Shown in pieces: positions 3,170 through 56,336 of a stretch of DNA of 64,000 bases (position 1 is its first letter; each line of letters opens with the position of its first letter). This DNA is from Desulfopila aestuarii DSM 18488 (lineage in GTDB: Bacteria > Desulfobacterota > Desulfobulbia > Desulfobulbales > Desulfocapsaceae). A program made the translations under genes and the position numbers. The notes under the pieces are model-generated. The model made no database searches. It was not told where the DNA came from and saw only the letters and a program-made list of their open reading frames with translations. Location: NCBI GenBank assembly GCA_945863875.1, contig CAMBBS010000022.1, forward strand, positions 1-64,000, written 5' to 3'.

Positions 3170-3640
3170 TACCCCCGCCCGCCTTTTAGGCGGGTAGCAT
3201 TCTGCTAGCAGTTAGCATATAAGCGTCATATGGACTATCGCCAAGTGAGTTATACAAAGTTCAAAATTGAGTACCAAAGCACCGCTGCCATGTTTTGCAA
3301 GGAGACCTGGCCTCGAGGGTGCGCTATAGCGAGGTGTTGTCAGCAAGGATCATGTGCATATTCTTGTATCTGCACCGCTAGTCATCTCACCATCTGACGT
3401 CATGCGCAGGGTGAAAGGTCGAGTGGCACGAATGATATTTGAGGAGTTTTCGTTAATCAAAAAGCGGTATTGAGGGCAATATTTTTGGGCTTGAGGCTAT
3501 TTTTGTGTCACCTCCGGTGAACTCACGAAAGAAATGATAAAGGAATATCTGGCCCATCATTTTGAAAAAGACCCCAACGATCGTTTTGACATCGAATAGC
3601 TCAACCGGCGAAGGCAGGTGTCGCTGGACTTTCAGTCCGC
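3170..3640 (+). mobile_element. Degenerate IS200/IS605-type element
   Basis: A tnpA remnant (3230-3599) is bracketed by two short hairpins of the kind that mark IS200/IS605 ends. The left one is CCCGCC-TTTTA-GGCGGG at 3178-3194. The right one is GGACT-TTC-AGTCC at 3626-3638. No terminal inverted repeat is expected for this family. The exact ends are inferred from the hairpins only. Confidence 0.6.
3230..3599 (+). pseudogene. IS200-like TnpA (Y1 HUH transposase), inactivated
   Basis: The start MDYRQVSYTKFKIEY is typical of IS200 TnpA, but the middle is frameshifted. In a second frame the rest is clear: DHVHILVSAP with the HUH metal motif, PSDVMRRVKGR, then a C-terminal block with the expected catalytic tyrosine in MIKEYLAHHFEKDPNDRFD. 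Two TGA codons stand where tryptophans are expected (KKRYWGQYFWA). The gene is about the usual 140 codons long but cannot give a full protein. Confidence 0.8.
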
Positions 3641-54766: not shown

Positions 54767-54989
54767 CCAATTGGGGAAACAACAAAATCCAACCGGATCG
54801 TCACGTTTTCCTTGACATATCGGCCGCAAATATTCCCGCATACTCGGCTGATGAAGCTGTGACTATTGCCAAGCCTGTTCTTTTCCTCAACTTTTCAGGC
54901 TCTGCCGGACGGAATACCCGAATTAACCTTGGCCAATATCTACCTGTTTCGGGCAGAACATCACTATTCATTTTCGCAGTTGCCGGATG

Positions 54990-55024
54990 ATATCAATTAG
55001 CGTCGGCACCTCGGCAATTGATAT
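54990..55024. terminator. Hairpin at the end of the sia operon
   Basis: ATATCAATT (54990-54998) pairs perfectly with AATTGATAT (55016-55024). It lies 220 bases after siaD and immediately next to the 19-bp inverted repeat, so it may belong to that element rather than serve as a terminator. Confidence 0.4.
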
Positions 55025-55042
55025 TGTGTCCCCAGATTAAAC
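55024..55042 (+). repeat. Left copy of a perfect 19-bp inverted repeat
   Basis: TTGTGTCCCCAGATTAAAC. The exact reverse complement is at 56150-56168. This copy contains the stop codon of the enclosed gene. Sequences like TGTCCCCAGATTA/TAATCTGGGGACA are often found at ends of IS200-like (RAYT) elements, from memory only. Confidence 0.75.
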
Positions 55043-56128
55043 CAGTTTCCCGCCATGGTGTTGGCCATCATACAAACGTCCATTATGCGTGGCAAGAAAA
55101 GTGGCTAAGGGGATTTCTTCCTGTTTGATAAAACCTTTGCGTGGCAGAGCGCCGCTATTGACCATTTCCAGGACAGCACAGATGGAGGCAGCCGTGGTCC
55201 AAGCGATTGCTCTTCTCGCTTTTCCTGCAATTACAACGGGAGGGTAGGCCCTGACAAATTCTTCCCGAGTGAGTTGACCATGGATCCAGCCCTCAACAGA
55301 GGCATGGATATAGACAACATCCTCGCTCACGGGCGGTTTGGCATTGACCAGCAATTTGCCGGCATTTACCTTGTCTTCACGCATCAGGAGTTCGTGCAGA
55401 AGAAAGTTCATCAAGGCGGCGTGTCCCATATATCGGATCGATTTGTAGTCGAGGTTTTCGACAAGACCATCGTAGGTTTCGCACATGGTACCAAGTCCTC
55501 CCGAAGTGGTGAATGCTTCGAGCTGCACACCATCGATGACAATCTTTTCCAGCCACTCCAGCGGCGATACCCATTTTCGGACACCACCTTCAATGACTTC
55601 ACAGTCGTTGAGGTACTCGTTGACGACCCCCTCCGGAGACCAGTTGAAGGCATAACCGAGCAAGCCGGTCGGATGTTTTGGCAGGGCGCCGACACGCAAT
55701 TTAATAGATCGTATTTTGTCAAAGCTACTGGCAAGAGAAGCTCCTGCAATAGCGATAAAGCCAGGGGCAAGGCCACATTGCGGAGCCATGACGACAGATG
55801 CGTTTCGACTCAATTCCATTATTTCTCTTGTGGTCTGTACATCTTCAGTCAGATCGAAATAGTGCGTGTCGCATTGTGCTGCAACTCGTGCTACTCCGAC
55901 ATTGAAATGGTACGGCAGGCAGGAAATTATTGCATCATGATCCTTGATGCCTTTGCTTAAGTCCGTTTCGCTGGTTATGTCGATGGCTTCGGCTGGGAAT
56001 GGAAATGTCTCGGTTACCTTCAGGTCGGCTCCAGTCACTTTGAATCCGGTCTCATGGAGCAGGAGTGCAACGAGATGTCCGACTTTGCCAAGACCCAGAA
56101 CCAATACCGAATTGATATGTTTGTTCAT
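55037..56128 (-). CDS. Saccharopine dehydrogenase-family protein (lysine 6-dehydrogenase-like)
   Basis: 363 aa. The N-terminal Rossmann motif VLVLGLGKVGHLVALLLHETG is followed by the domain linker FDLTEDVQTTREIMELSRNASVVMAPQCGLAPGF. A C-terminal catalytic domain carries FTTSGGLGTMCETYDGLVENLDYKSIRYMGH. Close types oxidise lysine or carboxynorspermidine; which applies cannot be told. An ATG with a tggag site starts 22 bases inside the right repeat. The gene is alone, framed by the 19-bp inverted repeat, which overlaps its stop. Confidence 0.8.
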   Translation of the reverse strand: MNKHINSVLVLGLGKVGHLVALLLHETGFKVTGADLKVTETFPFPAEAIDITSETDLSKGIKDHDAIISCLPYHFNVGVARVAAQCDTHYFDLTEDVQTTREIMELSRNASVVMAPQCGLAPGFIAIAGASLASSFDKIRSIKLRVGALPKHPTGLLGYAFNWSPEGVVNEYLNDCEVIEGGVRKWVSPLEWLEKIVIDGVQLEAFTTSGGLGTMCETYDGLVENLDYKSIRYMGHAALMNFLLHELLMREDKVNAGKLLVNAKPPVSEDVVYIHASVEGWIHGQLTREEFVRAYPPVVIAGKARRAIAWTTAASICAVLEMVNSGALPRKGFIKQEEIPLATFLATHNGRLYDGQHHGGKLV

Positions 56129-56149
56129 TGATGATCTCCAGTGTCATCT

Positions 56150-56168
56150 GTTTAATCTGGGGACACAA
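56150..56168 (-). repeat. Right copy of the perfect 19-bp inverted repeat
   Basis: On the plus strand this reads GTTTAATCTGGGGACACAA, the exact reverse complement of 55024-55042. It stands just upstream of the saccharopine-dehydrogenase-like start codon. Confidence 0.75.
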
Positions 56169-56336
56169 AACCGATTAACGGGGTGTCGACATTACATTGG
56201 ACTCTTTGCCCAGATTTATTCTTTTTCTTTGTTGAAAAAACTTTTTGAAGTTAGTTGGCGTTAACCCTGGCTGATTCAAACTTTGAACACACGCATCCAG
56301 TACTTCGGTTGCGAGTTCCGCCGGGCACTTAAGGCG

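Follow-up and report, generated by a model that had tools for sequence, protein, structure and literature searches.

A single gene between two inverted arms

The window, i.e. the whole stretch of 64,000 nucleotides that was analysed, carries TTGTGTCCCCAGATTAAAC at 55024-55042 (+) and an exact inverted copy of it at 56150-56168. No other inverted pair in the window reaches 16 exact bases at a spacing of up to 5 kb, and the two arms of this one are the only copies of the exact 19-mer in the whole 4.69 Mb assembly. In dinucleotide shuffles, the 19-mer matched 0.03 times on average when up to 3 mismatches were allowed, and no shuffle of 100 contained two matches. A single gene lies between the arms and encodes a protein in which both Pfam domains, Sacchrp_dh_NADP and Sacchrp_dh_C, are present. 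This layout had been described in an initial annotation, and the position and perfect inversion of the repeat, the single saccharopine-dehydrogenase-like gene, its stop codon within the left arm and the hairpin against that arm were all recovered as described. The 21 bp that separate the start codon from the right arm would hold a ribosome-binding site but not a usual promoter.

Features of the framed gene and of its repeats, with the evidence for each
Feature	Position	Strand	Evidence and remarks
Framed gene, saccharopine-dehydrogenase-like, 363 aa, intact	55037..56128	-	ORF; PF03435 + PF16653; G053 (nearest relative) orthologue 83% identical, same end codon
Left arm, GTTTAATCTGGGGACACAA read on - strand	55024..55042	-	AATCTG toward gene; contains the TAA stop of the gene (55037-55039)
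Hairpin adjoining left arm, outer part of left repeat	54989..55025	-	Stems ATATCAATT (54990-54998) and AATTGATAT (55016-55024); weak element homology
Right arm, GTTTAATCTGGGGACACAA	56150..56168	+	21 bp upstream of start codon
Right repeat, decayed palindrome of ~70 bp, tentative	56150..56221	+	Fold and sequence; right arm to distal CCCAGATT (56210-56217)
Hairpin-forming repeat sequence of the family			AATCTGGGGACACAATA
Sequence on which the family assignment to RAYT repeats of relatives turns			AATCTGGGGACACAA

The arms belong to a family of palindromic repeats

With the relaxed motif AATCTGGGGACA[T/C]AATA, a family of imperfect palindromes of about 45-95 bp was recovered in the same genome, with relatives across the order. 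The window pair are members of this family, which was invisible to the initial annotation. Whole-genome searching with the 19-mer has a double outcome: the exact word is restricted to this locus, but the relaxed family occurs elsewhere. The 19-mer has 15 genome sites at up to 3 mismatches. With one mismatch allowed, 16 sites match the motif TTAATCTGGGGACANA, and with two allowed, 37 do so (reversed control, 2); most of them lie in contig C2 between 81 and 108 kb. Three nearly intact elements from C2 can be aligned with one from C35 over about 90 bp, and they fold into long hairpins; shorter palindromes of 46-50 bp match the right half of this ~90 bp element. A sequence model made from these elements finds full copies in C2 and C35 only. 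At the left repeat of the window it gave a weak match (55008-55041, E about 0.1) and at the right repeat none, so that common ancestry of the outer parts of the window repeats with the element is tentative. The C2 copies read GGGGACAT or GGGGACAG where the window arms read GGGGACAC, and both window arms carry the CACAA variant.

In the region at 81-108 kb of C2 (L101 and L102), copies of the repeat are densely clustered. They lie among toxin-antitoxin genes of the HipBA, MNT/HEPN, Fic and AbiEii-like kinds, and genes for sulfate assimilation, a flavodoxin and a glutaredoxin-like protein are enclosed one at a time. The same region holds two group II introns (RF01999), at L101 9599-9718 (-) and L102 8315-8432 (-), corresponding to about 85.6-85.8 and 101.3-101.5 kb of G000:C2. 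Since the presumed 5' ends of both, GTGTGCCACGAGAGC, begin right after TAATCTGGGGACA, the introns appear to have been inserted at the same position of repeat copies.

Position of the repeats at gene ends

Stop codons lie inside the arm or its TTAATCTG end in the genes for HipA (INLGT*), HigA (VNLAT*), a glutaredoxin-like protein (NLGA*), HDOD, DUF218 and flavodoxin; in SelO and in a gene that looks PfpI-like by eye, the stop falls a few bases short of the arm. REPs are known to adjoin the 3' ends of genes and can provide their stop codons (PMC3733652), so a stop codon within an arm is ordinary for this kind of repeat. Outside C2, the six sites with at most one mismatch form three close pairs, each of them around one gene or operon, namely the gene studied here, HigBA and SelO. 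Such an arrangement of three pairs was obtained in 0 of 2,000,000 random placements, a figure which is descriptive because the sites were chosen after inspection. The pairing could be explained either by local hopping or by joint movement. HipBA in C2 shows the same framed layout.

The HigBA-type pair lies between facing arms at L104 3822-4569 (G000:C38:36821-37568), and its antitoxin ORF ends VNLAT* within the arm. At L103 2142-6239 (G000:C35), SelO is split by a gene of 727 aa in which a DruA-like domain is fused to a Tn5-type transposase. The ends of SelO bear repeats of the window-arm family, and the interruption by the transposase came later. When the neighbourhoods of the flavodoxin gene were compared for insertion into an operon, they were conserved in no relative.

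Related repeats frame RAYT genes in relatives

TIRYT genes, which are related to RAYT genes, have terminal inverted repeats on either side with GGGGWSAS in common, and some of these repeats make up families (PMC3733652, PMC6006769). TnpA-REP subclass 2.1, with the consensus GGGG[AT][CG]A[CG], corresponds to RAYT group 1 (PMC6006769). Both window arms conform to the GGGGWSAS core through GGGGACAC. Genes of RAYT type were detected in 80 of the 93 genomes of the family (profile, E <= 0.001). Twenty RAYT genes of ~225-250 aa were taken by protein length and not by repeat, a sample that is not random; an inward GGGGAC[A/G] occurs within 150 bp of an end in 17 of them and at both ends in 10, and outward copies were seen at one locus. 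Many of the repeats at these 20 genes read GGGGACAG or GGGGACAGAC and hence are related to the window arms without being copies of them. The framing is found in this lower-scoring 225-250 aa group, whereas the RAYTs scoring best against NF047646 are mostly without GGGGACA framing. At L185 a RAYT with an internal deletion, recognised by N-terminal and C-terminal profile matches, comes directly after the motif ATTCTGGGGACACAATAC, and this is the closest subfamily link between the motif and a RAYT. Over the order, 52 of 258 genomes contain TTAATCTGGGGACANAATA when up to 2 mismatches are allowed, against 11 matches in total for the reversed control, and some of the matches are palindromes, e.g. 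GGGGACACAATACTGATTATGGATTTTAGGTATTATGTCCCC.

The inward framing of a RAYT-like gene by the same repeat was thus found in relatives and not within the genome of the window. In this assembly, which is 98.5% complete, no cognate transposase was detected: with NF047646 there were two matches, both weak (best E 2.4e-5), and the PF01797 matches failed the RAYT profile. Published species with such repeats are also at times without the transposase. The exact 15-mer occurs, among the 93 family genomes, in this genome only. On its own, exact-word searching was misleading; it returned two unrelated matches from the genome collection and none from viral contigs and plasmids, and a literature word search for GGGGACA returned irrelevant matches only, e.g. 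a PCR primer.

Some further loci were noted. A Y1_Tnp fragment on contig C81 with GGGGACAC on both sides was considered as a RAYT and rejected, as it has no RAYT profile match, and the window itself holds, at 3327-3557, a fragment of a Y1_Tnp pseudogene interrupted by three stop codons. In two other genomes of the order, at L263 1608-1990 and L264 1868-2835, a single small gene is bracketed by near-identical, directly oriented GGGGACA repeats; by eye, the two genes look like a RelE/ParE-type toxin ORF and a cytochrome ORF.

Distribution and neighbourhood of the framed gene

High-score matches to the framed gene were found in 3 of the 15 genus genomes, and some match in 10 of 18 genera. In G053, the orthologue stands beside an amidohydrolase/proline-racemase pair, with neither arm and no repeats, and the EamA orthologue is on a different contig. 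Sequence similarity between the genus members and the window breaks off at the 3' end of EamA. To judge from the two assemblies, the gene is located differently in its own genome and in G053. In G035 it adjoins aldehyde and acyl-CoA dehydrogenase genes. The framed gene is likely to act in amino-acid breakdown. In two orthologues from genus g12, GGGGACACAATAC palindromes precede the gene at different distances, which indicates that such repeats insert independently upstream of it.

Origin of the framed layout

The initial annotation had regarded the gene as a possible cassette or mobilised passenger of a RAYT/IS200-like or MITE element. Its connection to RAYTs holds insofar as the GGGGACA core frames RAYT genes in the bacterial family, but the passenger claim is unsupported as worded, the polarity being outward. 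GGGGACA points inward at RAYT genes and outward around the window gene, which is faced by AATCTG. Because this polarity is opposite to that of the RAYT genes, the gene is placed outside both elements, with one repeat on either side of it, and the idea of a passenger inside one element is not supported. Nor are the terminal repeats in the polarity of a parent element, as in a mobile insertion cassette or composite transposon.

With a probability of about 0.65, we consider the arms to be the gene-facing ends of two short TIR/REP-type palindromic repeats of RAYT-like (TIRYT, Y1 HUH) transposases, which arrived by local or independent insertion. That they are ends of TIRYT/RAYT-type repeats is well supported. 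Such repeats are believed to disperse in trans in the form of single-stranded hairpins and to settle between genes, often directly at the 3' end of a gene, which may then take its stop codon from the repeat. The framed look would result from two copies, one of them on the 3' end of the gene and the other 21 bp before its start codon. The spread would have been driven by a RAYT/TIRYT that is undetected in this genome, and the two copies probably inserted locally or independently and did not bring the gene with them. Against this reading stand the failure to detect any RAYT of the group in this genome, the decay and weak homology of the outer halves of the window repeats, and the pairing of every one of the best copies outside C2, which random independent insertion does not predict.

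It is possible, although clearly less probable, that the gene and its two repeats move, or once moved, as a composite unit, with a RAYT/TIRYT acting in trans on the ends of both repeats. The three close pairs outside C2, the HipBA layout in C2, the CACAA variant common to both arms and the patchy occurrence of the gene with its other neighbourhood in G053 would all agree with such movement. The polarity opposite to that of RAYT elements speaks against it, and so do the g12 spacings, which point to independent insertions, while the pairing statistic is post hoc and local hopping gives the same pattern. In addition, no target duplication was seen by eye at the window locus, no alignable empty site was found in the genus members (one genome per species), and no second copy of the unit of gene plus repeats was found. 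A broader version, to which we give slightly less credit still, is that RAYT/TIRYT repeats bound small gene cassettes, in which a single gene or toxin-antitoxin operon is held tightly between facing repeats and takes its stop codon from a repeat end. A Y1 HUH transposase would gather and relocate these cassettes in trans, and integron-like arrays would arise without an integrase.

Two other explanations have far less to recommend them. The arms are exactly complementary around one gene and a hairpin stands beside its stop, and a part for REPs in mRNA stability or termination has been proposed (PMC3733652); the arms might thus be kept for a role in the transcript, either through a 19 bp duplex of the 5' arm with the 3' arm or through a 3' hairpin that ends or protects the mRNA. 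This is improbable, as the repeats are dispersed, occur around unrelated genes, and are both missing at the closest orthologue. An integron-like array with attC-type sites could account for C2, where ORFs lie tightly between imperfect palindromes of roughly 90 bp and group II introns interrupt two copies. It is the least probable reading and was rejected on core sequence and orientation: instead of the attC core GTTRRRY / RYYYAAC, the arms have GTTTAAT / ATTAAAC, with bases that vary among copies, the orientation of full elements relative to the genes is inconsistent, and the core is common to RAYT gene ends.

Comparison with known systems

Through its arms, a puzzling framed gene is tied to a little-studied repeat system, that of the TIRYT terminal repeats, relatives of which are shown here over a whole order. 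With repeats around toxin-antitoxin operons and patchy genes, possible RAYT-type movement of host genes becomes a concrete question that can be put to the test. Integron gene cassettes resemble the C2 region in that ORFs are tightly enclosed by imperfect palindromes; unlike attC sites, the repeats described here lack a GTTRRRY core and have mixed orientation. Mobile insertion cassettes (MICs) likewise consist of a transposase-less gene between inverted repeats, but MIC repeats share the polarity of the parent IS, which is reversed here, and movement is only hypothetical in the present case. The REP, BIME and REPIN sequences of RAYTs are also short extragenic palindromes at 3' gene ends that supply stop codons; the window family has a low copy number and another core. 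The terminal repeats of TIRYTs or TIRtrons differ in that no transposase was detected in this genome and that two copies stand outward around a host gene; their likeness lies in the fit of GGGGACAC to GGGGWSAS, in the framing of RAYT genes of relatives by this core, and in free copies that are single, palindromic and clustered.
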